Below, piece after piece: positions 3,657 to 20,148 of a stretch of 20,463 bases of DNA. A model generated the notes under the pieces. It saw only the letters and a program-made list of their open reading frames with translations. It was not told where the DNA came from and did no database searches. Within the stretch, counting starts at the first letter, position 1. Each line of letters begins with the position of its first letter. Made by a program: the position numbers and the translations under genes. Source of the stretch: a virus; the IMG/VR virus record IMGVR_UViG_3300009593_000160, positions 1-20,463 of that record; one strand, 5' to 3'.

Positions 3657-6164
3657 ATGGATTTTTACACAAATGTATGCAGGTCTCGTGACAAAATACT
3701 CGCAATAGGATATAAGAACGGAAAGAAACAAAAACTTTCTGTATCATATAGACCTAATCATTTCATACCATCCAAAAAAGGTTCATCGCCTTACAAGGCG
3801 CTCGATGGTAGACCATTAGAAGTTGTTAATCTCAACTCAATGGCAGGCGCCAAGAAATTCAAAGACAAGTATCAGAACATAGATGGTTTCGAAGTTCATG
3901 GTTATGATAGATACATCTATACTTACATATCTGATAAGTTTCCAGGCAAAATAGAATTCGACCCAAGACAAATAAAGATTGCCACACTTGATATTGAGTG
4001 TGAATCAGAGAATGGTTTTCCTGAACCATCACAGGCAATCGAAAAAGTAAACGCAATTTCAATTAAACCTTTCGGTAAATCTACTGTTGTATTTGGTATT
4101 GGTCCATGGGAGACAGAATCAGATGCAGTCTATGTGAACTGTAAAAATGAGAAAGAACTGTTGATGAACTTCATGAAGTATTGGAGACAAGAATGGTTTG
4201 ATATCATTACAGGTTGGAATGTAGATGCATTTGATATGACTTACCTTTGTAATCGTTATGATAGATTGTTTGGTGAAGATACACATAAGAAATTATCACC
4301 ATGGGGTCAGGCATCTCAGAGAGAGTTTCTACAAAATGGTTATCAGAAGACTCAGATATTTGATTTGAGTGGTGTTAATGTTGTTGACTATATGGAACTA
4401 TACAAGAGGTCTACATTCACCAACCAAGAATCATATAAGTTAGATTACATTGCACACTTTGAATTGGGTAAACAGAAATTAGATTACTCAGAGTATGGTT
4501 CATTACATACACTTTATAAGAATAACTATGCAAAGTATCTAGAATATAATGTTCGTGATGTTGTTCTCGTAGAAGAATTAGAAGACAAATTAGGTTTCTT
4601 AGACTTGACTCAGGCAATGGCGTATGATGCCAAGTGTAATTACATTGACACATTTGGTATGGTTAAGTATTGGGAAACAATCATATACAACTTCTTAAAA
4701 GAACAAGGTGTTCAGACACCACCTCAGAAACGAAATGAGAACAAGACTAATCAGATTGCAGGTGCGTATGTTAAAGAACCAATAACTGGTGGACACAATT
4801 GGGTAATGTCATTTGACTTAAACTCACTTTATCCTCATTTGATTATGCAGTGGAACATTTCGCCAGAGAAAATGATAAAGGGCAACAAACAAGATGTCAC
4901 TGTAGAAACTATGTTAGATATGAAGAGTGACTTGTCTGTATGTAAGAAGATGAATACAACAGTTGCACCTAATGGTGTTATGTTCTCTAGAGATAAACAA
5001 GGGTTCTTTCCTGAGATTATGGAAGTCATGTATGATGAGCGTAAGGCATGGAAGAAAAAGATGATTGAGTATCAGATAGAGAAAGAGAAAACAACTGATG
5101 CAAAAAGAATCAGAGAACTTGATACACTTATTAAAAGGGCATACAACAATCAACAGGTTAGAAAGATTGCATTGAACTCAGCGTATGGTTCTATGGCGAA
5201 TCAGTGGTTCGCCTTCTTTGACCCAAATCTTGCAGAGGCAATTACTTATTCTGGTCAGTTAGTTATTAAATGGTCAGAGAAGATAGTCAATCAATATCTA
5301 AACAAGATACTCAAAACAGATAACGAAGATTATGTTATTGCAATGGACACTGATTCGATTTATCTCACAATGGATAAATTTGTTAATACAGTTATGCCAG
5401 ATGAGACAGATAAGAATAAAATTATTGATTTCTTATCTAAGGCAGAGTCTAAGATAGAAGATGTTTTAGATGAGGGGTTTGAAGAACTCGCCAGTTATGT
5501 AAACGCATTTCAACAGAAGATGGAAATGGGTAGAGAAGTTATTGCAGATAAGGGTATATGGACTGCAAAGAAAAGATACATTCTTAATGTATATGATAAC
5601 GAGGGTGTTAGATTAGAGAAACCAAAACTCAAACTCATGGGTATTGAGACTGCAAAGTCGTCTACACCATTGTGGGTTAGAAGAAGATTAGAGAAGGCAA
5701 TTAAACTTGTGATGACTGGCACAGAACAAGAATTATGGGACTTCGTAGAGACATCAAGAAAAGAGTTTAGAGAATTACCGCCAGAAGATGTTGCGTTTCC
5801 TAGAGGGTGTAGAGGTCTAGTTCAATACGCAGACACTACAAACATATACTCAAAAGGAACACCAATACATGTTAGAGGTTCATTATTATTTAATCATAGA
5901 CTTAAAGAGATGAATCTTACTAAGAGATATGAACCTATTCTAAATGGCGAGAAGATACACTTTACATATCTCACTATGCCCAATCCTATTAATGAGAATG
6001 TGATATCATTCACCAACTCATTACCAAAAGAATTCGATTTACATAGATTTGTAGACTATGATATGCAATTTGATAAGTCGTTTGTCGAACCACTCAAGAA
6101 CATTGTTCAATTAATTAATTGGAATGTCGAACCTACTGCAAGTTTGGATACATTCTTTGCATAA
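3657..6164 (+). CDS. 43: replicative DNA polymerase, family B (T4 gp43 type)
   Basis: 835 residues against 898 in T4 gp43. The N-terminal opening MDFYTNV matches T4's MKEFYISI, which supports this start; an in-frame stop lies just upstream. The proofreading exonuclease is intact: ExoI LDIECESENGFPEP (about residues 105-118), ExoII TGWNVDAFDMTYL, and ExoIII YLEYNVRDVVLVEEL. The polymerase motifs follow in order: A (SFDLNSLYPHLIMQWN), B (RKIALNSAYGSMANQWF) and C (IAMDTDSIYL), then KKRYILNVYD of the thumb side. It copies the phage genome with clamp, loader, helicase and primase; helicase gp41 is encoded 2.1 kb downstream. The promoter appears to sit directly on the start codon with no ribosome site. 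Confidence 0.97.
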   Translation: MDFYTNVCRSRDKILAIGYKNGKKQKLSVSYRPNHFIPSKKGSSPYKALDGRPLEVVNLNSMAGAKKFKDKYQNIDGFEVHGYDRYIYTYISDKFPGKIEFDPRQIKIATLDIECESENGFPEPSQAIEKVNAISIKPFGKSTVVFGIGPWETESDAVYVNCKNEKELLMNFMKYWRQEWFDIITGWNVDAFDMTYLCNRYDRLFGEDTHKKLSPWGQASQREFLQNGYQKTQIFDLSGVNVVDYMELYKRSTFTNQESYKLDYIAHFELGKQKLDYSEYGSLHTLYKNNYAKYLEYNVRDVVLVEELEDKLGFLDLTQAMAYDAKCNYIDTFGMVKYWETIIYNFLKEQGVQTPPQKRNENKTNQIAGAYVKEPITGGHNWVMSFDLNSLYPHLIMQWNISPEKMIKGNKQDVTVETMLDMKSDLSVCKKMNTTVAPNGVMFSRDKQGFFPEIMEVMYDERKAWKKKMIEYQIEKEKTTDAKRIRELDTLIKRAYNNQQVRKIALNSAYGSMANQWFAFFDPNLAEAITYSGQLVIKWSEKIVNQYLNKILKTDNEDYVIAMDTDSIYLTMDKFVNTVMPDETDKNKIIDFLSKAESKIEDVLDEGFEELASYVNAFQQKMEMGREVIADKGIWTAKKRYILNVYDNEGVRLEKPKLKLMGIETAKSSTPLWVRRRLEKAIKLVMTGTEQELWDFVETSRKEFRELPPEDVAFPRGCRGLVQYADTTNIYSKGTPIHVRGSLLFNHRLKEMNLTKRYEPILNGEKIHFTYLTMPNPINENVISFTNSLPKEFDLHRFVDYDMQFDKSFVEPLKNIVQLINWNVEPTASLDTFFA

Positions 6165-7257: not shown

Positions 7258-8313
7258 ATGTCATTCATTAAAGACTTAGTGAAAGCATCAGGAAATGAAT
7301 ACGCAGGTATCGTTTCTGATGGTATTGCAGCTGGAGATGTTGACTCATTCGTAGACAGTGGGTCGTTTGTCTTCAATGCATTATTAAGTGGCTCGCTATT
7401 CGGTGGGTTACCAAAAAACAAAATTACTGCAATCGCAGGAGAATCAGCAACAGGAAAAACATTCTTTGCATTAGGAATGGTAAAACAATTCTTAGAAGAC
7501 AATCCTGAAGCTGCTGTAATTTACTTTGAATCAGAATCAGCACTCAGCAAAGATATGATTGAGGAAAGAGGAATCGATTCAAATAGGATTGTTATTGTGC
7601 CTGTAATAACAGTTCAACAATTCAGAAATCAGGCAATTAATATTCTCGATAGATATCTAGAGACACCAGAGGACGATAGACCTCCAATGATGTTCTGTTT
7701 AGATAGTCTTGGTATGTTATCAACTACAAAAGAAATCGAAGATACTGCTGAAGGAAAGGAAACTAAAGACATGACTCGTGCCCAAATTACAAAGGGTGCA
7801 TTTAGAGTATTAACTCTTAAACTTGGTCGTGCTGGTGTTCCTATGATAGTCACGAACCACACATACGATGTGATTGGTTCTATGTTCCCACAAAAAGAAA
7901 TGGGTGGTGGTAGTGGACTTAAGTATGCCGCTAGTTCAATCATTTATCTTTCTAAAAGAAAAGAGAAAGAGGGAACAGAAATCGTAGGAAACATTATTCA
8001 TTGTAAGAACGCAAAGTCAAGACTTACTGTTGAGAACAGAATGGTCGATGTCAGATTGACATATGATAAAGGACTAGATAGATATTATGGTCTACTAGAC
8101 CTTGCACTTGCAAGTGGAGTTTTTGAGAAAGCTTCAACCAGAGTCAAACTACCAAATGGTAAAACAGAATTTGGTAAAACGATTAACAATAATCCAGAGA
8201 AATACTTCACTGATGAAGTAATGGAAAGATTAGAAAAAGTAGCTAACCAGTATTTTAAATATGGAAATAACGAGAATAGAACAGACGATACTCAAGAATC
8301 TGATTCAGAGTGA
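7258..8313 (+). CDS. uvsX: UvsX recombinase (RecA family)
   Basis: 351 residues against 391 in T4. The Walker A motif is GESATGKT at residues 61-68 and Walker B lies in [13 protein letters not shown], about residues 141-153. The DNA-binding loop region [33 protein letters not shown] matches the RecA/UvsX core (first twenty residues of that stretch carry the T-N-H-T-Y motif). It forms filaments on single-stranded DNA, pairs homologous strands and starts recombination-dependent replication with the gp41 helicase, whose gene follows immediately. GGAG at 7245-7248 is the ribosome site. Its 3' end overlaps gene 41 by 53 bases. Confidence 0.95.
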
Positions 8314-9649
8314 AGAGTTTTCACGGAAAGTAATTCCTTTCCTAAAACCTGAGTATTTTGCCGATTCATCTGAGCAATTGGTATACAAAGAGATAACACA
8401 TTATTTCGAAAAGTATACTAAGAGTCCAACACTTGAAGCACTTCTCATAAACCTTGACAATAATTCATCTGAGTCAGAGAATATTGTTAAAGGGTCTAAA
8501 GAGTTGTTGGGCTCGATGCCTAAAGATGATACACCGTTAGAATGGCTTGTCGATGAGACAGAATCTTGGTGCAAAGATAGAGCAATCTATATTGCAGTTA
8601 TGGATTCTATTGAAGTCTTAGATAAGAAGTCTCAAAGGTCGACCGGCGAAATACCAGAGTTATTAAAGGATGCCCTTTCCGTGTCTTTTGACCAACACAT
8701 TGGTCACGATGTATTAGAAGATGCAGAAGAGAGACATAATTTCTATACACATGAAGAAGAGAAATTACCATTTGATTTAGAATACTTTAATAAGATTACA
8801 AAGGGTGGTCTTCCTAATAAGACATTAAACATATGTCTCGCAGGAACAGGTGTTGGTAAATCATTATTCATGTGTCACATGGCATCAAGTGCCTTAATGC
8901 AGAACAAGAATGTATTGTATATTACACTTGAGATGGCAGAAGAAAGAATTGCAGAGAGAATAGATGCAAACATTATGAATGTTCCTATGAAAGAGTTGCC
9001 AGATATATCTAAGAAAGATTATGGTAAGAAGATTGAAAGACTTAAGAACAAGACAAAGGGTAAACTTATTGTGAAAGAATACCCAACTGCAGCTGCCCAC
9101 GCAGGACATTTTAGACATCTATTACAAGAATTAGATATCAAGAAAGATTTTCAACCAGATGTAATCTTTATTGATTATCTAAACATATGTGCATCTCAGA
9201 GAATTAGACCAGGCGCTGGTGCAAACTCTTATACATTAGTTAAGAGTATTGCAGAAGAGTTGAGAGGTGTTGCAGTAGAATATGATGTGCCAATCATGAG
9301 TGCAACTCAGACTACAAGAAGTGGTTTCGGTTCTACAGATATTGGCTTAGAAGATACATCTGAATCATTTGGTTTACCGGCAACTGCTGACTTAATGTTT
9401 GCACTGATTACATCAGAAGAACTAGAAGAGTTAGACCAACTTGTCGTAAAACAATTGAAGAATAGGTATAATGACCCTACGATATTTAAACGATTTGTTA
9501 TAGGTGTTGATAGGGCCAGAATGAAACTCTACGATGTAGAACAAGAGGCACAGGAAGAATTAGTTGATGGTGAACTATTAATTGATGATAGTATTCCTGT
9601 TGCTGATAGAGCGAGACCATCAAACAAGTTTAACGATTTTAAGGTATAA
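8261..9649 (+). CDS. 41: replicative DNA helicase (DnaB family, T4 gp41 type)
   Basis: 462 residues, near the 475 of T4 gp41. The N-terminal helical domain ([20 protein letters not shown]) aligns with the start of gp41, and an in-frame stop lies just upstream, so the ATG at 8261 is the only plausible start. The RecA-like domain has Walker A AGTGVGKS (residues 194-201), Walker [13 protein letters not shown], and the [16 protein letters not shown] and [11 protein letters not shown] elements typical of DnaB helicases. It moves 5' to 3' on the lagging strand as a hexamer and recruits primase. The gene begins inside uvsX with a 53-base overlap. Confidence 0.95.
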
Positions 9650-9651
9650 TT

Positions 9652-9816
9652 ATGGGAACAAGAGCAAGAGTAAAATTTAGTCATACAGGTGGCATTGCCG
9701 GAAGAAGAACAAGGGCGCTTGAAAGATTAAAGAATGTTAAAGAACCAACCAACAAACAACTCAAAGAGATTGAGACATTAGAAGAGAGGACTAGAACAAC
9801 GACTAGTATTATATAA
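9652..9816 (+). CDS. 54-residue basic protein
   Basis: A short gene in the space between gene 41 and the cupin gene, from ATG 9652 to TAA 9814-9816. The protein begins MGTRARVKFSHTGGIAGRRT and continues with a charged amphipathic helix ending in a Thr-rich tail. The first 33 residues are strongly basic, as in small nucleic-acid-binding proteins. It starts two bases after gene 41 ends and its stop codon shares one base with the next ATG (TAATG), so it is tightly coupled on both sides. No family recognised. Confidence 0.6.
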   Translation: MGTRARVKFSHTGGIAGRRTRALERLKNVKEPTNKQLKEIETLEERTRTTTSII

Positions 9817-10148
9817 TGCAAAGGGTTAGAATAGAAAATATAGGTGGAGAGATTATTAAAGATACTTCTCAATATCTATTAAAAGATAATCCTTTTGGTG
9901 AACACTTAACTCTTAGTAGCACAATGTTAAGGGCGAATGAATCAACAAATGGACATACACATGATGACCAAGAAGAAGTTTATTACTTCCATAAAGGTAA
10001 AGGTGAAATGCAAATTGATGATGAAAGATTTCCTGTAGAGGCAGGTGATATCGTTTGTATTAATATTGGAGAGTTTCATAAAGTTATCAACACAGGAGTT
10101 TTTGGTTTATATTTTATATGTGTATTTGAAGGAGGAAGAAACCACTAA
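9816..10148 (+). CDS. single-domain cupin protein
   Basis: 110 residues forming one conserved cupin beta-barrel. Motif 1 is GHTHDDQEEVYYFHKGKG, with metal ligands His47, His49 and Glu53; motif 2 is EAGDIVCINIGEFHKV, with the fourth ligand His88. Such proteins bind Fe, Mn or Zn and act as small-molecule isomerases, dioxygenases or sensors; the substrate cannot be told. It overlaps the 54-residue gene by one base and the DUF4338 gene by one base, the latter preceded by the ribosome site GGAGGA within its own codons. The neighbouring 2OG-Fe(II)-type gene suggests an iron-using group. Confidence 0.85.
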   Translation: MQRVRIENIGGEIIKDTSQYLLKDNPFGEHLTLSSTMLRANESTNGHTHDDQEEVYYFHKGKGEMQIDDERFPVEAGDIVCINIGEFHKVINTGVFGLYFICVFEGGRNH

Positions 10149-11428
10149 TGGAACCATTTGTTCAGAAACAATTTGACGAGTATCAGGCAAATAGAACTGA
10201 AAAGGAGATATTGCCTAAAGAAGAACTCAGAGAACTATTGATAAAAGATTTATCATTTGTTTCTAAAATGGGTGTGGCAGAATACACCTTATACCAGAAG
10301 TATCAAGAAATACATTTGAAATATCCATCACAAACAGTTCAGACTTTATATGGTGAAGAAACAAACTTTGTCAATGAAGACCATTTAAAACTAATTACAG
10401 AAACTAAGAATAACATATGGTTTCCAAAAGTCTTTGCAGACTTCGTTAATCTAGAACCAGAATTGATATACACTGATTCAGAGAAAGATAGACAGGCTGC
10501 TGGTTCTCTTACTGAGAGGTGGAATTGTTTAAGAACAATGACACACAGCCAGAAGAACTCATCTAACATTGGTAGAAATCTACATTACATTGTTAGAGAT
10601 AAAGTCACAGGCAAGTATCTTGGTGTCATTTGTATCACAGGTGACTTCATTGACTTAACGCCTAGAGATAATTACATTGGTTGGGATAGAGAATACAAAA
10701 CAAATAGTGGTAAACTAAACAACAGTGCGATTGGTTCAAGTATCTTACCAACACAACCATTAGGGTTTAATTATACAGGTGGTAAACTCATGGCATTGTT
10801 ATGCACTGCCGATGTGATACAGAAACAGTGGGAAGAAAACTATGGTGATAAGTTAGTTGGCATGACTACTACATCATTGTATGGTAAATCTAAGACAGGT
10901 GGTCTATCACAATACGATAGACTCAAACATTGGAAGAAAATGGGTTATAGTCAAGGTTCATTATCATTTGAGATGACCAAAGAGACTGAAAGAAAGATGC
11001 TAGACTATGCAGAACACCATTTCAATGAGAGATATTTCTTATTGTATGTTGCAAAACGAGAGAGTGGTCAGACATTGAAGAGAGACCATAGAAATCGTAT
11101 GAGACAATTTATGTATTCACAGTTAAAGATACCAAAAGATTTACAGAAGAGTGACCATCAAAGAGGTATCTACTATTCTACATTCTATGAAAACTCTAGA
11201 GAGTTTCTTAGAGGTGAGATAGAACAAGACCAATTGGTTAGAAATTCAAACGATGGTTCAGTAGAATCATTAACTCAGTTATGGAAAGAGAAATATGCCG
11301 CTAAGAGAATTACTAATCTTATGAAATCAGATAGGCAAAACTTAACTGAGACATTATTCTACGATGACATCATAGGTATGTCATGGGAAGAATGTAAAGA
11401 AAAATATTTAGGAGATGTAGGTAGATGA
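10148..11428 (+). CDS. DUF4338 (DruA-like) protein, copy 2
   Basis: 426 residues, apparently complete. The family pattern lies in the middle: W125-x2-L-R, then IGRNLHYIV (141-149), a GKYLGVI strand, RDNYIGW (173-179), and SILPTQPLGFNYTGGKLMA (198-216), followed by W228-x2-NYG and a TTTSLYG segment. This order matches DUF4338, best known from DruA of Druantia. The N-terminal 115 residues are helical and not recognised. The C-terminal half is charged and basic. Both window copies keep the PTQP-x-GFNY-x-GGKL core, so it is probably the active or binding site. No DruE-type helicase or other Druantia part is present. It is coupled to the cupin before it and the oxygenase after it (ATGA). Confidence 0.65.
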   Translation: MEPFVQKQFDEYQANRTEKEILPKEELRELLIKDLSFVSKMGVAEYTLYQKYQEIHLKYPSQTVQTLYGEETNFVNEDHLKLITETKNNIWFPKVFADFVNLEPELIYTDSEKDRQAAGSLTERWNCLRTMTHSQKNSSNIGRNLHYIVRDKVTGKYLGVICITGDFIDLTPRDNYIGWDREYKTNSGKLNNSAIGSSILPTQPLGFNYTGGKLMALLCTADVIQKQWEENYGDKLVGMTTTSLYGKSKTGGLSQYDRLKHWKKMGYSQGSLSFEMTKETERKMLDYAEHHFNERYFLLYVAKRESGQTLKRDHRNRMRQFMYSQLKIPKDLQKSDHQRGIYYSTFYENSREFLRGEIEQDQLVRNSNDGSVESLTQLWKEKYAAKRITNLMKSDRQNLTETLFYDDIIGMSWEECKEKYLGDVGR

Positions 11429-12099
11429 TACCAATAACAGTGGTTGACGATTTTTTAGATGAACCACATCAACTTCTAGAGTTGGCCGATGCATTAGAAT
11501 TCGCACCGGATCCAAATGGAATGTGGCCTGGTACCAGAAGTGAACAACTTCATTTAGTAAATGACATACTTTATGACAATCTTGTCACAAAAGTTATGAG
11601 TCTATTTCAAGCCTTACCTGATTTGGGTAGAAGTGAAACCTCATATGGGGCATCTGCTGCCGGATTAGTCGATTGCACTATGGCATTTCAAAAGATTCCT
11701 GCCAAGATGCATAGTGGTTGGGTTCATAGTGATAATGGTTTCGCAACAGGCATACTTTATTTGAATGAAAGTGACGGCACTTCAATCTATACTAGTAAGG
11801 AAGGTTCACTACTTGACCCATCTCATTTTGAAACAAAACAGAAATGTAATCGTCAAGGTTATATGACTGAGAGAGACATACAAGTTCAAATGGAGTTTAA
11901 CGATTCGTTTGAAGAACATGTAAATGTTAAAGGTAAATTTAATAGACTATTGATAATGCCGAATTGTTATCATGGTGCAAACAGTTTTGAGGTTACTGAT
12001 TCAAAAGACGAAGAGAGATTAACATTAGTTATGTTCTTTCATAGAATTGCAGGTGAACCTATGCCTATAGAAAGAATGAAAGCAGTGAGGATAGTATGA
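11425..12099 (+). CDS. 2OG-Fe(II) oxygenase-like protein
   Basis: 224 residues. The iron-binding facial triad is recognisable: His101-x-Asp103 in WVHSDNGFATGILYLNE and the distal His183 in PNCYHGANSF, with Arg198 in ERLTLVMFF as the likely 2-oxoglutarate carboxylate ligand. The strand LIMPNCYHG before the distal His also fits the double-stranded beta-helix fold. Enzymes of this class hydroxylate proteins, nucleic acids or small molecules with O2 and 2-oxoglutarate. The gene starts in the stop codon of the DUF4338 gene and its own stop overlaps the next start, ATGA in both cases. The substrate is unknown; DNA or virion protein modification is a guess. Confidence 0.7.
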   Translation: MIPITVVDDFLDEPHQLLELADALEFAPDPNGMWPGTRSEQLHLVNDILYDNLVTKVMSLFQALPDLGRSETSYGASAAGLVDCTMAFQKIPAKMHSGWVHSDNGFATGILYLNESDGTSIYTSKEGSLLDPSHFETKQKCNRQGYMTERDIQVQMEFNDSFEEHVNVKGKFNRLLIMPNCYHGANSFEVTDSKDEERLTLVMFFHRIAGEPMPIERMKAVRIV

Positions 12100-12359
12100 C
12101 AATGAATATTCTGGACATGGTTCCAGTTAAAAAAAGGGGTGTCTTAATCGAAGGTCGAAAGATTAGAATCGATAGAGACATGTATAGAGAATTTACTGAG
12201 AAAGTATCTAAACTAGAGGTTCTTGGACATGAACTACCACATATAGTAGAACATGAAAAGGAAGAGGATATGTTCACAGTAGAACTTCTAGGTGAAGTAG
12301 ACTTAGAAGAATTGGATAGTATTATCAGTGGTTTTGACGAATCCAACGAAGCGGATTAG
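12096..12359 (+). CDS. hypothetical acidic protein
   Basis: 87 residues, starting at 12096 or at the second ATG at 12102. A basic N-terminal third (VPVKKRGVLIEGRKIRIDRD) is followed by an acidic helical part rich in Glu and Asp. No motif or family recognised. It is the last member of the overlapping run that begins with the 54-residue gene and ends ten bases before the tRNA. Confidence 0.65.
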   Translation: MTMNILDMVPVKKRGVLIEGRKIRIDRDMYREFTEKVSKLEVLGHELPHIVEHEKEEDMFTVELLGEVDLEELDSIISGFDESNEAD

Positions 12360-12369
12360 GTAAATATAT

Positions 12370-12445
12370 GGGGTGGTAGCTCAGTAGGGAGAGCGTCTGG
12401 TTTGCATCCAGAAGGTCGTGGGTTCGATTCCCTCTCACTCCACCA
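12370..12445 (+). tRNA. tRNA-Ala (anticodon UGC)
   Basis: Full cloverleaf of 76 bases. Acceptor GGGGTGG (12370-12376) pairs with TCACTCC (12435-12441) through five Watson-Crick pairs and G-U pairs at 3-70 and 7-66; discriminator A and an encoded CCA follow. D stem GCTC/GAGC, anticodon stem TCTGG/CCAGA, loop TTTGCAT with anticodon TGC at 12403-12405. T stem GTGGG/CCCTC has one T-T mismatch (50-64) and loop TTCGATT. The G3-U70 pair is the alanine identity element, which supports the anticodon reading. It decodes GCA and probably GCG/GCU, and GCA is the prominent Ala codon in the phage genes here. Confidence 0.95.
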
Positions 12446-12470
12446 TTGATAATAAAAATAAGGAGTATAT

Positions 12471-13094
12471 ATGAAAAATATATTAGGAGCATTAATACTA
12501 ATGCTATCAACGAGTGCATTTGCAGACATGTCTGTTAATATGAACTATACTAACGACTACATTTGGAGAGGCGTGTCACAAGGTGACGGTAACGCACTTC
12601 AACTTGGAGTTGAATATGATAGGGACATACTTGCAGGAAATCTTGTAGTAGGTGCATGGACATCAGAAGTAGACTTTGATGGAACAGAGCGTGAGGCAAA
12701 CTTTTACGCTGGGTTCTCAATGCCAGTAGTGGCAGACCATATTGAAGTTGGTTTTGGATATGTCGAAAGAAAATTTGACAATGAAGCATATGACCACGAA
12801 GAGGCATTTGCATCTATATCATTTCTAGATGTGGGATTAAGCATGATGTATGCAAAGACTCAAGCCGAATTCGGTGATGAGTTTGCACAAGCTCAATGGA
12901 CTCTACCATGGGTAGACCAATGGGTTGATGTGAGCGTAATATATAATTATTTCGAAAAGAATGAAGACCAAGTATTATTTGGACTCTCAAAAGAGTTTGA
13001 TAATGGTATGGGATTACACCTTTTAACAGGTGATGATTACATTACTGATGAGAATTTTACATCAGTGTCTTTATCTTATAATTATAAATTCTAA
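12471..13094 (+). CDS. TorF-like outer-membrane porin
   Basis: 207 residues. A signal peptide occupies residues 1-18 (MKNILGALILMLSTSAFA, cut before Asp19). The mature part consists of alternating beta strands with aromatic belts and ends in SLSYNYKF, the C-terminal Phe signal for BamA-dependent insertion. NDYIWRGVSQGDG near the start of the mature protein and the strand YAGFSMPV match the pattern of the TorF/TIGR02001 family of bacterial proteins of unknown function. A host-like porin in a phage may change uptake or shield receptors against superinfection, as phage-encoded porins do in lambdoid phages; that is inference. AAGGAG eight bases upstream is the ribosome site. It lies between the tRNA and a hairpin, so it forms its own unit. 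Confidence 0.8.
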   Translation: MKNILGALILMLSTSAFADMSVNMNYTNDYIWRGVSQGDGNALQLGVEYDRDILAGNLVVGAWTSEVDFDGTEREANFYAGFSMPVVADHIEVGFGYVERKFDNEAYDHEEAFASISFLDVGLSMMYAKTQAEFGDEFAQAQWTLPWVDQWVDVSVIYNYFEKNEDQVLFGLSKEFDNGMGLHLLTGDDYITDENFTSVSLSYNYKF

Positions 13095-14154: not shown

Positions 14155-14221
14155 ATACACTCTTTATACCTTCTTATTCATTTTTATTTATTTGGGATTA
14201 ATGACAATAGCAGTAATATGA
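14138..14221 (+). CDS. 27-residue membrane peptide
   Basis: A short gene from ATG 14138 to TGA 14219-14221. The peptide starts MKKLLKYT and continues with an uninterrupted hydrophobic stretch, FLFIFIYLGLMTIAVI, enough for one membrane helix. It begins inside the last codons of the upstream gene and ends with ATGA on the start of the HAD gene. If the 138-residue gene were followed directly by the HAD gene there would be an unexplained 63-base gap, which this peptide fills exactly. Confidence 0.5.
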   Translation: MKKLLKYTLYTFLFIFIYLGLMTIAVI

Positions 14222-14655
14222 AAACAATAATTTTTGATGTAGACGGAACAATCGCAGATTGCGACCACAGAAGACATTTTGTGGAGAACAACAACGATTG
14301 GAAGTCTTTTAAAGAACAAACAGTAAACGATACGCCTGTTCAATGGGTTTGCGATATTGCAAAGAGATTCATTGCACAAGGTGATGATGTTGCCTTCTTC
14401 TCAGCAAGAAACGAAACAGAGAGAGAAGTCACAGAGAGACAAATTTCAGAGTGGATTGGTGATGGTCACAAAGGACTTTTCCTTAGACCCAATGATTCAT
14501 ATGATCCTGATGAGGTATTCAAGTCTGAACTTGCTGATAAGTTTGAAGAAATTGGTGGTAAAATTGACCTCGTATTTGACGACAGAAACAAAGTTGTTGA
14601 TATGTGGAGAGCAAGAGGAACCACTGTAGTTCAAGTAGCAGACGGCGACTTTTAA
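14218..14655 (+). CDS. HAD phosphatase, polynucleotide 3'-phosphatase-like
   Basis: 145 residues, the size of one HAD domain. Motif I is IIFDVDGTIAD with nucleophile Asp7 and Asp9; motif II is FFSARNE (Ser62); motif III Lys102 lies in VFKSEL; motif IV is LVFDDRNKVVDMWR (Asp121, Asp122). The ending RARGTTVVQVADGDF closely resembles the C-terminal phosphatase domain of T4 polynucleotide kinase (PseT), which removes 3'-phosphates and 2',3'-cyclic phosphates from RNA. No kinase domain is attached; a P-loop kinase is instead fused to a nucleotidyltransferase at 17193. The gene is coupled to the peptide before it and ends at a strong terminator. Confidence 0.8.
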   Translation: MKTIIFDVDGTIADCDHRRHFVENNNDWKSFKEQTVNDTPVQWVCDIAKRFIAQGDDVAFFSARNETEREVTERQISEWIGDGHKGLFLRPNDSYDPDEVFKSELADKFEEIGGKIDLVFDDRNKVVDMWRARGTTVVQVADGDF

Positions 14656-15694: not shown

Positions 15695-15702
15695 TATAAA
15701 TA
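15695..15702 (+). promoter_or_regulatory. T4-like late promoter (perfect TATAAATA)
   Basis: TATAAATA matches the T4 late consensus at all eight positions and lies in the 51-base gap before the ligase-like gene. The predicted start is 15708, giving a 36-base leader before the ATG at 15744. It probably drives the four coupled genes down to 18482. Confidence 0.75.
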
Positions 15703-15743
15703 CTAGTATTACACGAACCTTAAGAGAAAAGTGATACTAGAAT

Positions 15744-16949
15744 ATGGCAGTCAAGAACTTACATTTAGAACATTTAGAAGACGAAATTATCAACAATGGT
15801 ATTGATGGTGGTCGTGCTGCTATAAACTTTCTTCGTTCTCTCAGAGATATGATGAAAGGCACCTCAAAGAAAGGTGTCAACATGACAGTCAAATGGGATG
15901 GTGCCCCAGCAATTTGGGCAGGAAAACATCCAGAAACAGGTCAATTCTTTGTTGCAAAGAAATCACTATTCACTAAAGACCAATTACACTACACATCTGA
16001 ACAACAAATCAAAGATGCATCAGAACTATCTGGTGACTTAGAGAAGAAGTTCATAGAGTCATTCAAGTATCTATCTAAACTTTCATGGAATAAAATCTTA
16101 CAAGGTGACTTGATGTTCACCGATGCAGATAAGGAAATGGAAGAGATAGATGGTGTGAACTATGTCACATTTCAACCAAACACAATCTTATATGCCGCTG
16201 ATATCGAATCAGACTTAGGCGAAGCTATAGCCACCGCAAAATATGGTATAGTTTTTCACACCACCTATGAGGGTTCAACAATAGAAGACCTTGGTGCATC
16301 ATTTGGTGCAGACATATCTACTTTAGGACATAGTAAAGATGTTTGGGTTGACGATGCATCGTATAAGAGTGTTGCAGGTAATTCAAAGATGACTGCAAAA
16401 GATACAGTCGTATTAACTAAGGCATTATCAGAAACAGGTAAATCATTTCATAAGATTAAGAAAGCTTCATTGACTAAGTTCATGAAAGTTCAAAAGGCAA
16501 TACAATCTAAAGGTGCAGGTGCAACATACAAGACATACATGAACGCACAAATTAGAAAGGGTAAATTCAACCTAACTTATAACGATTACATAAAACACTT
16601 CGATGATTATTGGAGAGATAAAGTAGTTGGTAAAGTTAAAATGGAAAAGACAAAGAAAATGAAAGAAGAAATGGGTGTGCAACTAAGAAGAGAACTAGTT
16701 GGCCTAAAGGTGTTGATAACTGCATTAACAACATTTCAAACTAACATGGTAAATGCAAAAGATATAGTCATTAAAGGTTTAAATACTGTAAAGGGTATTG
16801 GAACATTCAAGAAGACTTCTACAGGTTTTGAAACAGTGAATCCAGAAGGATATGTCGCAATCGATGACTCAGGTAAGGCAGTTAAGTTAGTAGATAGAAT
16901 GGAGTTCTCACTAAATAATTTCACAGTGGCGAAGAATTGGGACAAATGA
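15744..16949 (+). CDS. KxDG nucleotidyltransferase (ligase-like) protein
   Basis: 401 residues, no signal peptide. Elements of the covalent nucleotidyltransferase (RNA/DNA ligase, capping enzyme) superfamily appear in order: motif I VKWDGAPAIWAG with putative nucleophile Lys50; a motif III-like ILQGDLMF (118-125); a IIIa-like KYGIVFHT (166-173); motif IV PEGYVA (367-372); and motif V KAVKL (378-382). About 190 mainly helical Lys-rich residues separate IIIa from IV, an unusual insertion. The opening HLEHLEDEIINNGIDGGRAAINFLRSL recalls a conserved but uncharacterised T4-like marine phage family. If active it would form a Lys-AMP or Lys-GMP intermediate on RNA, DNA or a small molecule. Coupled by ATGA to the next genes. 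Confidence 0.6.
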   Translation: MAVKNLHLEHLEDEIINNGIDGGRAAINFLRSLRDMMKGTSKKGVNMTVKWDGAPAIWAGKHPETGQFFVAKKSLFTKDQLHYTSEQQIKDASELSGDLEKKFIESFKYLSKLSWNKILQGDLMFTDADKEMEEIDGVNYVTFQPNTILYAADIESDLGEAIATAKYGIVFHTTYEGSTIEDLGASFGADISTLGHSKDVWVDDASYKSVAGNSKMTAKDTVVLTKALSETGKSFHKIKKASLTKFMKVQKAIQSKGAGATYKTYMNAQIRKGKFNLTYNDYIKHFDDYWRDKVVGKVKMEKTKKMKEEMGVQLRRELVGLKVLITALTTFQTNMVNAKDIVIKGLNTVKGIGTFKKTSTGFETVNPEGYVAIDDSGKAVKLVDRMEFSLNNFTVAKNWDK

Positions 16950-17011: not shown

Positions 17012-17196
17012 CACAACTAATTAGTGAATATATGGGACAAGATAAGAAGGCAATAGTCTTCAACGATAATGGTGTATGGGGTTGTAATTATTACATGGGT
17101 AATGAACTCGTAAAGACAGAATTGTATGAGGGTCATTCAGAATCATATGCCGAAGATGCCGCTGAGAACTATATTCAAGGTGTAAAACAACTATGA
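17008..17196 (+). CDS. hypothetical 62-residue acidic protein
   Basis: 62 residues from ATG 17008; the frame is open to an ATG at 16975 but that start would lie inside the membrane peptide and lacks a ribosome site. Short beta-type segments (KAIVFNDNGVWGCNYYMGNELVKTELY) are followed by an acidic helix (ESYAEDAAENYIQGVKQL). No family recognised. ATGA overlaps on both sides bind it into the late unit. Confidence 0.65.
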   Translation: MTQLISEYMGQDKKAIVFNDNGVWGCNYYMGNELVKTELYEGHSESYAEDAAENYIQGVKQL

Positions 17197-18482
17197 AAAC
17201 ATTAAAGAGATTTATATCAGAAGCCAAGAATAAACCGGCAGTGTTTTCTTTTGGTCGTTTCAATCCACCAACAACAGGACACGCAAAACTAGTAGATAGA
17301 ATTTTTAGAATTGCTAAACAAGTCCAAGGTGATCCTATGGTGTTCACCTCACATTCAAATGATAAAAAGAATAACCCTTTAACACACAAACAAAAGGTTT
17401 GGTATCTCAGAAAGTTCTTTGGAAAAAAGGCAGGAATACCAGATGTTGCAGCCAGAACAATATTTGATATATGTGTTGCATTATATGACCAAGGATATAA
17501 AAAGATAGTTATGGTCGTTGGTTCAGATAGAGTTAGAGATTTTGATGCATTGATTAAGAAATATAATGGGTCATATGGAAGACATGGTCACTATAAATTT
17601 GATGACATACAGATAGTCAGTGCAGGAGAAAGAGACCCCGATTCAGATGATGTATCAGGTATGAGTGCAAGTAAAATGCGTGCTGCTGCTGAAAGAGGAG
17701 ACTTCGATGCATTTAAGGGTGGTGCACCAGATAAGAAAGCCGCACCTAAACTATACAGAGATGTTCGTAAGGGTATGGGAATCATGGAAGGTAATCTACC
17801 TGAATACATGATAGAAGACTTGATACAAGAAGGTGTATACGATCCAGGTATCTTCAAGGCAGTGTTCTTAATGGGTGGTCCAGGTTCTGGTAAATCAACA
17901 GTCGTCAAACAATTGGCACTCAACGCATTGGGTTTAAAGACAGTCAATACAGATAAATCATTTGAAGCAGGTCTTAAGAAGGCAGGCCAAACATTAGATT
18001 TAAAAACTGTGCCCGCTGCTGTCAGAGACCCCATAAGAAAGAAATCTAAGAGAATGACTGCAAGAATTTTAGATAGATATTTAGAGGGTAGACTTGGTCT
18101 CATCTTCGATACAACTAGTGCTGATAAAGGGAAGATAAGGGCATATAAGAGACAATTAGACTTGTTAGGATATGACTGTAAAATGATTTATGTTTCTGCC
18201 TCATTAGATAATGCACAGAAAAGAAACGCTGAAAGGGCGAGAAAATTACCAGCTGAAATAGTTAAGAGTGATTGGGATAAATCAGAAAAGAACATTGTAG
18301 CAATGAAGAGTATCTTCAAGAAAGACTTTGCTCAGATAACAAATGACGATGATTTGTTGTCATTAGAGAAGAAAACAAACTCTTTATATGCAAAATTGAT
18401 GACTTGGTCATCATCTTTCCCTACCTCAAAAGCTGCATTGCTCTGGAAACAGAGACAATTATTATCAAAGAAACATAAATAG
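17193..18482 (+). CDS. nucleotidyltransferase-kinase fusion with T4-like capsid-targeting peptide
   Basis: 429 residues in three parts. Residues 1-11, MKTLKRFISEA, match the capsid-targeting peptide of T4 internal proteins (MKTYQEFIAEA), including the gp21 protease site (I-x-E|A). Residues 15-165 form an HxGH nucleotidyltransferase, with GRFNPPTTGH (21-30) and SGMSASKMR (155-163), the NMN/phosphopantetheine adenylyltransferase type. Residues 222-429 form a P-loop kinase: Walker A GGPGSGKST (228-236), LIFDTTSAD (303-311), and a lid with KRNAERARK (343-351), resembling polynucleotide kinases and zeta-type kinases. The order recalls NadR (adenylyltransferase plus ribosyl-nicotinamide kinase), but the kinase looks different. 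It may therefore act on RNA ends or on an NAD-type cofactor. Last of four coupled late genes. Confidence 0.75.
   Translation: MKTLKRFISEAKNKPAVFSFGRFNPPTTGHAKLVDRIFRIAKQVQGDPMVFTSHSNDKKNNPLTHKQKVWYLRKFFGKKAGIPDVAARTIFDICVALYDQGYKKIVMVVGSDRVRDFDALIKKYNGSYGRHGHYKFDDIQIVSAGERDPDSDDVSGMSASKMRAAAERGDFDAFKGGAPDKKAAPKLYRDVRKGMGIMEGNLPEYMIEDLIQEGVYDPGIFKAVFLMGGPGSGKSTVVKQLALNALGLKTVNTDKSFEAGLKKAGQTLDLKTVPAAVRDPIRKKSKRMTARILDRYLEGRLGLIFDTTSADKGKIRAYKRQLDLLGYDCKMIYVSASLDNAQKRNAERARKLPAEIVKSDWDKSEKNIVAMKSIFKKDFAQITNDDDLLSLEKKTNSLYAKLMTWSSSFPTSKAALLWKQRQLLSKKHK
18474..18481 (+). promoter_or_regulatory. T4-like late promoter octamer (CATAAATA)
   Basis: CATAAATA overlaps the stop of the upstream gene. The predicted transcription start is 18487, the A of the next ATG, the same geometry as at 14707. 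Confidence 0.55.
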
Positions 18483-18492: not shown

Positions 18493-18747
18493 TCATTCAA
18501 AGAATACAGAATGAGTCCCAAAAATTCAGATTGGGAAGGTAGAGGTAAACTATCTAGAACAGTCAGAAAGGATTTCTGGAAGAGTTTTAAGAAACAAAAG
18601 AAAGAAGAATTGGGTCCAAACGCCGATGCAGGTGATTATGTAGATGATTTCAGAAAGTCAGATGCACCTCAGTTTAAGGGTAAATCAGACAAGAAGATAC
18701 AGAAAATGGCTATTGCCGCTTACTTATCAAAGAAAGGTAAAAAATGA
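18487..18747 (+). CDS. hypothetical basic protein, possible internal head protein
   Basis: 86 residues, strongly basic (many Lys in WKSFKKQKKEE, KSDKKIQK, SKKGKK), soluble, no known domain. The start MKSFKEY resembles the capsid-targeting opening MK-[TS]-x-x-E-[FY] but lacks a clear I/L-x-E cleavage site. GDYVDDFRKSDAPQFKGKSDKKIQKMA in the second half has a compact helix-turn look; it is not assigned. It begins at a late promoter and is coupled by ATGA to the even more basic gene at 18744, so a role in the head with DNA is plausible but unproven. Confidence 0.65.
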   Translation: MKSFKEYRMSPKNSDWEGRGKLSRTVRKDFWKSFKKQKKEELGPNADAGDYVDDFRKSDAPQFKGKSDKKIQKMAIAAYLSKKGKK

Positions 18748-19172
18748 ACGAACTTAAGACATTCGCAGAAATATTCGAAGATGAAATAGAGAACGAACTC
18801 ATTAATGAAGTCGATTCTATTCAGACTCGTATGAAAAAACGAAGAGCAATGCGTAAGAACCGTGCTAAGATTGCATTTGCTAGAAAGAAAGCAGCTAAAA
18901 GAAAGATTTTAGACCCGAAGAAACTCATGAAGAGGGCCAGAAAACAGGCAAGAAATAAGATTGCTAAGAGAATACTTAAGGGTAAGAGTAAGGCAGATTT
19001 GGGTATGGGTCAAAAGAGAGCGTTAGAAAAGATACTTGATAAGAAGGCATCTAAGATATCTAAACTCGCTAAGAAGATGTTAAAAGTCGTTAGACAAAAG
19101 GAAATGATGAAAGGTAAGAAGAAACCCATAGAAAAGTCTAACAAGAACGCAGTACCAGTTAAAAAGAAGTAA
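18744..19172 (+). CDS. extremely basic protein with acidic leader, probable head-internal DNA-binding protein
   Basis: 142 residues with two contrasting parts. Residues 1-23 (acidic, LKTFAEIFEDEIENELINEV) could be a cleavable capsid-targeting leader, and INE|V is a weak gp21-type site. The rest is about 40% Lys plus Arg, with helical runs such as MKKRRAMRKNRAKIAFARKK and KMLKVVRQKEMMKGKKKP and almost no acidic residues at the end. Such composition fits an internal head protein that neutralises packed DNA, as T4 internal proteins do. There is no enzyme motif. It overlaps the upstream gene by ATGA, shares its transcript, and ends in a Lys run. Confidence 0.65.
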   Translation: MNELKTFAEIFEDEIENELINEVDSIQTRMKKRRAMRKNRAKIAFARKKAAKRKILDPKKLMKRARKQARNKIAKRILKGKSKADLGMGQKRALEKILDKKASKISKLAKKMLKVVRQKEMMKGKKKPIEKSNKNAVPVKKK

Positions 19173-19212: not shown

Positions 19213-19220
19213 TATAAATA
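19213..19220 (+). promoter_or_regulatory. T4-like late promoter (perfect TATAAATA)
   Basis: TATAAATA is exact and lies eight bases before the ATG at 19229, so the predicted start (19226) leaves a three-base leader. A weaker ACTAAATA lies at 19182-19189. AAGGA at about 19206 is too far upstream to be a usual ribosome site. Confidence 0.65.
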
Positions 19221-19228
19221 ACTATATC

Positions 19229-19624
19229 ATGGATAAACAACAACAGACTTGGAAAGATAAATTAGAAGAAGTTAGAGGGTTTAATAAACCTACTCTTGCT
19301 GTCACCGAAGAAACTAAAGAACCAGTTCCAGTGGAGGAACAACACGAATTAGATGAAATCGAAGAGTTGCTTAAGAAGGAATTTGAAGAACAGACAGAGA
19401 GCCAAGAGGAGAATCTGGAGTCACTCGAAGAAAAAAGAGATAGACTACAGGCAGAACTCAACCAAGTAGAGGCAGAACTCGCTGAAGAAAATCAGTCAGT
19501 AGAAAAATCCATCGAAAAACTAACTGAACGCAACATGCTTGGTAGACTTGCCAAGTCACTAAGATTAAACGAACAAGGTAAACAGAAGATGTTTAACTAC
19601 TTCGAAAATGGGGAAATCAAATGA
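19229..19624 (+). CDS. acidic coiled-coil protein, possible scaffold
   Basis: 131 residues, with a long acidic coiled coil from about residue 38 to 100 (EIEELLKKEFEEQTESQEEN, then LEEKRDRLQAELNQVEAELA), and a short C-terminal helical cap (MLGRLAKSLRLNEQGKQKMF). High Glu content and coiled coil recall prohead core scaffolding proteins of T4 (gp22, gp68), but length and order do not prove it. It has its own late promoter close to the start codon and is coupled by ATGA to the next acidic gene. Confidence 0.7.
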   Translation: MDKQQQTWKDKLEEVRGFNKPTLAVTEETKEPVPVEEQHELDEIEELLKKEFEEQTESQEENLESLEEKRDRLQAELNQVEAELAEENQSVEKSIEKLTERNMLGRLAKSLRLNEQGKQKMFNYFENGEIK

Positions 19625-20148
19625 GTATACAAGAGTTATCTCAAAAACTAATAGACGACATGAAAACAATTCTAGAAGGCGGAACTGTTGAAGTCGTTGA
19701 AGATAACACCAACGACAAATCAGACGATGGTGAAGGTCTAGATAAAGTTCAACCTAAGGCAGTCAAGAAAAAATTCAAAGACAGAAAAGACAAAGACATT
19801 GATAACGATGGCGATACTGATGACTCAGATGAATTCTTACACAAGAAAAGAAAGGCAATATCTAAGGCAGTAGCACAAGACGAAGAGACTGTTAAAGAAG
19901 AAGATGATGAAGAACTTCCTAAGAAAGATGATGATGAAGAAGAAGATGAAAAGAAACTTCTAAAAACTGGTAAAGGTGGTAAATACCTTAAGTATTCAAA
20001 CCTACTTCTTAAGAAACAAAAAATGCCTAAAGGTGCAGACATGACTGCAATCAACAAAGAAATCAAAAAAGAAAGACAACATCTAGGTATAACAGAAGAA
20101 ACTTTAGAAGACTTACTTATACATTACCTTCCAGAACAAGAGGACTAA
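19621..20148 (+). CDS. acidic and basic mixed-charge protein with calcium-type Asp motif
   Basis: 175 residues. The central region has DIDNDGDTDDSDE (residues 59-71), an Asp/Asn/Gly string that fits an EF-hand-like or thrombospondin-type-3 calcium site, though the twelfth position is Asp and the eighth is Thr, not Ile/Leu. It is flanked by basic KKKFKDRKDK and HKKRKAISKAV. A Glu/Asp/Lys stretch at 88-113 follows, then a helical C terminus with the ending EETLEDLLIHYLPEQED. The pattern KDRKDKDIDNDGD is one I associate with T4-like marine phages, without known function. ATGA overlap on the upstream gene; the next gene begins two bases after the stop. Confidence 0.7.
   Translation: MSIQELSQKLIDDMKTILEGGTVEVVEDNTNDKSDDGEGLDKVQPKAVKKKFKDRKDKDIDNDGDTDDSDEFLHKKRKAISKAVAQDEETVKEEDDEELPKKDDDEEEDEKKLLKTGKGGKYLKYSNLLLKKQKMPKGADMTAINKEIKKERQHLGITEETLEDLLIHYLPEQED

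Follow-up and report, generated by a model that had tools for sequence, protein, structure and literature searches.

A predicted T4-type capsid-targeting sequence on a phage nucleotidyltransferase-kinase

Introduction

The window analysed here, a 20,463-nt stretch of DNA of a marine T4-like phage, contains an ATG-initiated plus-strand ORF (17193-18482) for a 429-residue enzyme with the N terminus MKTLKRFISEAKNKPAVFSFGRFNPPTTGH. The locus raises the question of whether this enzyme, a nucleotidyltransferase fused to a kinase, is itself a cargo of the phage head. In T4, mutagenesis of internal protein IPIII assigns residues 4 and 7 of its tag to targeting and residues 8 and 10 to processing, the protease gp21 cleaves after L/I-x-E, and the host receives fusions to the capsid-targeting sequence (CTS) (PMC9026906).

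The best explanation overall, to which we assign a probability of roughly 0.84, is that residues 1-10 of the enzyme constitute a T4-type CTS, with late synthesis, cleavage and injection. The enzyme would be made late from the promoter TATAAATA, and leader residues 4 and 7 would bind the scaffold core of the prohead. The prohead protease gp21 would then cut past I8-x-E10, so that the enzyme would be free in the head by the time the DNA is packaged and would enter the next host together with it.

Architecture and inferred chemistry of the enzyme

The ORF comprises a leader, a nucleotidyltransferase domain of the cytidylyltransferase-like family PF01467, a linker and a P-loop kinase domain with the motif GGPGSGKS at 17874-17897 (Table 1). 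An AlphaFold2 model (pTM 0.48) places the first strand of the nucleotidyltransferase at residue 16, in agreement with the earlier note on this DNA, which had the enzyme begin four residues past its first 11 residues. Model confidence falls below pLDDT 50 at residues 1-10, 146-155 and 199-216, a pattern consistent with two domains joined by a flexible tether. The protein is predicted to be basic (pI 9.9). Because its active-site motifs are almost wholly invariant across 30 homologs, it is expected to be catalytically active, although the reaction is not known.

The best PDB fold match across both domains is NadR (6gyf, E 3.8e-6), which combines NMN adenylyltransferase and ribosylnicotinamide kinase activities; sequence searches identified no solved structure at E 0.01. 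Pfam, AlphaFold2 and Foldseek all support the NadR-like order, in which a single chain runs from an NMNAT domain into a P-loop kinase. The NadR model TIGR01526, however, covers only residues 19-79 and scores 30 bits against a cut-off of 341, failing the NCBIfam equivalog criterion, and the kinase sequence lies nearer AAA_33, PNK or PSTK. Fold matches to the kinase include NadR, dephospho-CoA kinase, PSTK and PNK, as well as zeta-like proteins. A nucleotide or NAD-type reaction is inferred from the NadR-like architecture, with the substrate unknown; as infection starts, the enzyme's likeliest uses are to sustain NAD or nucleotide pools or to undo a host defence. A stand-alone PNKP-type phosphatase (14218-14655; PF25109, E 1.9e-24) is encoded about 2.5 kb before this PNK-like kinase ORF. 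Elsewhere, the window encodes a DruA-domain protein (10148-11428; PF14236, E 9.7e-23), part of which a shorter ORF at the window start (103-810) resembles by eye, and a tRNA-Ala(TGC) gene (12370-12445).

Table 1. Coordinates of the leader, its enzyme and associated features. Positions refer to the window unless another sequence is named.
Feature	Position	Strand	Evidence or remark
Capsid-targeting leader (predicted), residues 1-10, MKTLKRFISE	17193..17222	+	Enzyme-derived matrix, family conservation, pLDDT <50
Nucleotidyltransferase domain, residues 16-198 (GRFNPPTTGH, SGMSASKMR)	17238..17786	+	PF01467 E 6.8e-7; PHROG 3041 E 1.8e-61
Unstructured interdomain linker, residues 199-216	17787..17840	+	pLDDT <50; E199, E208 and E213 invariant or near-invariant
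P-loop kinase domain, residues 217-429	17841..18479	+	PF13671 E 7.2e-13; Zeta_toxin E 5.4e-9
T4-type late promoter (predicted) TATAAATA of the DUF6267-enzyme operon	15695..15702	+	Conserved placement
5' leader hairpin CTAGTATTAC...GTGATACTAG of the late transcript	15703..15740	+	Predicted in 32 distinct leaders
DUF6267 protein, encoded first in the operon, untagged in this clade	15744..16949	+	Pfam PF19782 E 2.6e-91
Very basic ORF, net +35, pI 10.9, leader MNELKTFAEIFEDEIENELINE	18744..19172	+	PHROG 23027 E 3e-6
Modular tagged proteins	L089 4001-5953; L090 2998-4407; L091 15214-16641; L088 6666-8456		Glu often near module border
Tagged S-CREM2 (L138) SAM hydrolase, Cas9-like nuclease and APH-like kinase	3837-5081; 7704-10313; 10579-12846		Virion-reported

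A conserved predicted late promoter upstream

Virion proteins have to be synthesized late, which agrees with the promoter predicted 49 nt upstream of the DUF6267 start. The motif [TC]ATAAATA lies 32-49 nt upstream of DUF6267 in all six genomes compared; it also precedes gp20 (5/5), gp22 (5/5), gp18 (4/4) and gp13 (3/4) and is absent before gp43, uvsX and gp41 (0/6 each). As about two copies of TATAAATA are expected by chance per window, the evidence resides in the conserved placement alone. The enzyme thus appears to be late-expressed, on promoter prediction only, with its sharing of one transcript with DUF6267 inferred from gene order. The sole other TATAAATA of the window (19213-19220) is situated just upstream of ORF 19229-19624 and suggests a second late operon comprising that ORF and an acidic one (19621-20148).

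Between promoter and DUF6267, the transcript is predicted to fold into a hairpin placed alike in L008, L017, L025, L032 and L150 and ending a few nucleotides before the start codon. C-G pairs change to G-C from one clade to another, the C-G of the window-type hairpin being G-C in L008, in the absence of a formal covariation test. The DUF6267 transcript has this hairpin instead of a clear Shine-Dalgarno sequence, whereas the gp18 and gp22 leaders contain GGAG and no such hairpin. DUF6267 itself displays ligase-like motifs: KWDGAP, EGYVAI (EGYV) and KAVKLVDR (KLVDR). Assignment as an RNA or DNA ligase was rejected, as Foldseek returned nothing below E 0.001 and only weak ligase matches at E 1.7 or worse; the motifs remain a lead.

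Resemblance of the leader to the T4 internal-protein tag

The earlier note had proposed that MKTLKRFISEA matches the signal of the T4 internal proteins and includes the gp21 pattern I-x-E|A, and both proposals hold. In NC_000866, ipII (MKTYQEFIAEARVG) and ipIII (MKTYQEFIAEASVV) begin MKTYQEFIAE|A, to which MKTLKRFISE|A conforms, and ipI (MKTFKEFTSTTTPVSTITEATL) begins MKTFKEFTSTTTPVSTITEA. Across 35 non-redundant full-length family members, K2 and E10 are found in every sequence, position 11 is A, G or Q in all, and position 8 is L, I or M in 33, the other two having deletions. The criterion of a hydrophobic or aromatic residue at positions 4 and 7 was met (F/L/Y in 33/35 and F/W in 31/35, respectively). 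Positions 5, 6, 9 and 13 vary, and K12 is conserved. The least variable leader columns (2, 4, 7, 8, 10 and 11) cover all mutation-mapped residues of the IPIII tag.

To quantify the likeness, 23 distinct leaders, all from this enzyme family, were turned into a 10-column weight matrix, with which the start region of every ORF in T4 and in the marine sequences was scored. The best three scores among 254 T4 ORFs belong to ipIII (13.6), ipII (13.6) and ipI (6.9), with the next at 4.6. Over all genomes scanned, a score of at least 6 is reached at 23 of 2820 start-region Met/Val codons (0.82%, some of the 23 being the enzymes themselves), as compared with 4 of 8793 internal Met/Val codons (0.045%) and 0.085% in shuffled controls. 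The resemblance of the leader to the T4 tag exceeds chance.

The enzyme and IPI, IPII and IPIII are alike in leader length, in residues 2, 4, 7, 8, 10 and 11, in a gp21-type site, in being basic and in the presence of gp21 (for the enzyme, in its relatives). They differ in that their mature parts are unrelated, the IPs being small binding proteins and the enzyme a two-domain cargo with active-site motifs and a second set of I/L-x-E sites between its domains. Among T4 proteins, the ADP-ribosyltransferase Alt is a published case of an enzyme that travels in the head, is cleaved by gp21 and reaches the host by injection. Its NAD chemistry may be shared with the present enzyme, but we know of no homology between their bodies. 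The suggestion that Alt be aligned with the leader did not survive: its start, MELITELFDEDTT, does not fit, aligning only over a short x-E stretch, and Alt was dropped as a second template.

A tag that leads to the scaffold need not lead to the next host. The leader could instead recruit the enzyme for a role in head assembly or DNA packaging without injection, a reading that we consider improbable yet the most durable of the alternatives. T4 IPIII also affects head assembly (PMC9026906), and a late-expressed kinase or nucleotidyltransferase could act in the producing cell. The delivery of CTS fusions to the host by T4 (PMC9026906) and the intact active-site motifs of the enzyme weigh in the other direction without excluding this possibility. 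Injection, and action in the first minutes of infection as the earlier note predicted, are only inferred, by analogy with T4.

Spread of the leader among homologs and unrelated cargo

By a looser pattern, the leader is kept in 35 of 38 diverged homologs, and it is also found in those of Syn9, P-SSM2 and S-CRM01. Trimming is not universal: the nucleotidyltransferase of Pelagibacter phage HTVC008M begins MKTLKELLRKK, with no Glu in its leader, and the gp23 of this phage is without an [ILM]xE[AGS] site.

The leader also occurs on proteins that are not related to the enzyme. Phage C48C1 has four adjacent tagged genes, encoding a DUF6267 protein (MLDFKNFITEQ), a basic protein (MLSFKQFVSEV), a nucleotidyltransferase (MIKNFSQYLLEE) and a small protein (MITFKKYLEEK); Melnitz-1 has a similar set. 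Unrelated carriers within a single phage, our criterion for portability, are found in C48C1, Melnitz-1 and S-CREM2. Compared from residue 21 on, the carrier bodies fall into many groups without blastp links and one large group joined via common modules. DUF6267 orthologs are untagged in the clade of the window (MAVKNLHLEH) and tagged in another (MIKFSSFITEDKGGKNLHLEH), with MIKFSSFITED and MLKFNGFLTED in the sister clade, indicating that the leader has been gained or lost on the same protein. Judged from these sequences, the leader is portable, although some motif-bearing gene families may be chance matches.

Such breadth bears on the possibility that the conserved N terminus is merely structural, the opening element of the enzyme or its dimer, and unconnected with the capsid. 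Its presence beside the catalytic domain in nearly all family members and the conservation of K12 would suit that reading, which we nonetheless regard as very unlikely: the leader is predicted to be disordered (pLDDT <50 at residues 1-10), it recurs on unrelated proteins and T4 internal proteins, the Syn9 and P-SSM2 homologs keep the motif despite about 60-100 extra residues before the enzyme, and Paride, a jumbo phage that is not T4-like, has a homolog without it.

Tagged proteins are modular, with the same small DUF5824-like, CWxxxKQVG and basic K/R-rich modules appearing as separate tagged ORFs or as fused precursors; the long modular precursors could be polyproteins cut by gp21. The very basic ORF that follows the enzyme in the window is a candidate co-packaged DNA-binding protein. 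Its relatives have a better tag (MLSFKQFVSE in C48C1, E 5e-9), and a basic Melnitz ORF, MKKFSELTSELIE, resembles it without a blastp link.

Head machinery and presence in virions

Both gp21 (PF03420, above the Pfam cut-off) and gp23 are encoded on 8 of 13 contigs of relatives, namely those of sufficient length to reach the head cluster. These include G004, the nearest large relative, with 81% enzyme identity. The window, a 20.5-kb fragment without the head cluster, does not encode gp21. In five relatives, gp23 carries L[DE]E|A, compared with LTE|A in T4 gp23.

Members of the enzyme family are already known from virions by mass spectrometry. The T4-GC190 cytidylyltransferase was found in S-SM1 virions (PMC3037559), and P-SSM2 gene 194, annotated T4-GC 190, begins MKSFSQFLTE. 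S-CREM2 ORF154, which begins MKNFSSFLTE|A, was detected in virions by three unique peptides (PMC10665884), and NMNAT-like proteins were reported in virions of S-SCSM1 and S-CBWM1 (PMC9602691). These proteins (T4-GC190, S-CREM2 ORF154 and S-SCSM1 ORF91) share the homologous nucleotidyltransferase domain at 33-48% identity. Most of those examined have the enzyme's leader, some with 60-100 residues between it and the enzyme, unlike in the window, and those examined are without the C-terminal kinase. The virion data concern one-domain cyanophage homologs only, and not the two-domain subfamily to which the window enzyme belongs. For no family member did the literature searched offer a mature N terminus or an injection assay.

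The S-CREM2 proteome permits a broader comparison. A strict tag pattern, found at 2 of 843 internal Met codons, selects five proteins. The virion contains four of these (SAM hydrolase, APH-like kinase, cytidylyltransferase and gp13), compared with 52 of all 219 (Fisher p = 0.012, resting on five proteins). A looser pattern gives a weaker signal (5/9, p = 0.037). LRFASFMAE|A follows a short extension in a Cas9-like virion protein, and MQTFSMFFSE opens gp136, a basic protein of the virion. The entry of the tagged S-CREM2 virion enzymes into the capsid was previously unexplained. In the texts searched, the authors who described the cyanophage virion cytidylyltransferases and NMNAT-like proteins are silent on the T4 tag, and no link between virion enzymes and this tag was found in the literature searched, in which 'capsid targeting sequence' and 'cyanophage' occur together only in a T4 review.

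That the enzyme is an ordinary metabolic or anti-defence protein of virion-producing cells, detected in cyanophage virions through lysate contamination, draws support from the mere three unique ORF154 peptides and from the S-SCSM1 authors, who name lysate carry-over as possible (PMC9602691), but is hard to credit given independent detection in several phages and the same leader on different non-structural S-CREM2 virion enzymes with 19 (SAM hydrolase) and 21 (APH-like kinase) peptides (PMC10665884).

Packaging of the enzyme in the capsid, as the earlier note had it, is well supported at the family level by the match to the mapped tag, the portable leader, relatives that encode gp21 and gp23, the predicted late promoter and the published detections in cyanophage virions. 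That gp21 removes the leader, with a predicted cut at E10|A11 (17222|17223), is strongly inferred, with no mature N terminus reported.

Linker sites and a possible two-enzyme precursor

Absent from the earlier note, along with the late promoter, was a second conserved I/L-x-E region. Glu occurs in at least 95% of the family at only six positions (10, 116, 199, 208, 213 and 258), four of which belong to the leader or to the linker between the domains. At E10, E199 and E213, I or L occupies position -2 and the intervening residue is among the most variable of its stretch. E213|G214 (17831|17832) has I/L at 211 in 34 of 35 homologs, and [IL]xE|G is also found at 37-40% identity. In HTVC008M, the kinase is a separate ORF that starts MIPFILKE|GLYDPGIF.

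A second gp21 cut at E213|G214, separating the domains, is therefore plausible, at a little under even odds. Residues after G214 are conserved as well, so that a structural reason for linker conservation is possible. In neighbouring non-cargo genes, conserved E with I/L at -2 is found in 7 of 60 cases, and a simple Fisher test on this feature did not reach significance (p = 0.19), E10 having dropped out because alignments were truncated. The middle residue of such sites is mostly invariant in the neighbours, as opposed to eight residue types at each of E199 and E213. The claim rests on the pattern, the predicted disorder and the diverged homologs, not on the Fisher test. A tentative extension, again somewhat more doubtful than probable, is that the enzyme is a head mini-polyprotein: gp21 would cut at E10, E199 and E213, freeing two enzymes to be injected together, with other tagged precursors likewise cut at module borders.

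Implications

Judged by the literature searched, three things appear to be new: the explanatory tag, its occurrence on unrelated cargo, and the linker sites. NMNAT-like and other non-structural proteins have been reported repeatedly from cyanophage virions by authors who did not know their route of entry; a tag of ten residues, whose binding and cleavage logic is known, accounts for them. The linker sites raise the testable idea that a single targeting peptide delivers two enzymes. Because the tag is searchable in any T4-like genome, it provides, among hypothetical proteins, a shortlist of candidates for carriage into the host at infection: a short tag probably marks the proteins that a phage carries into the next cell.
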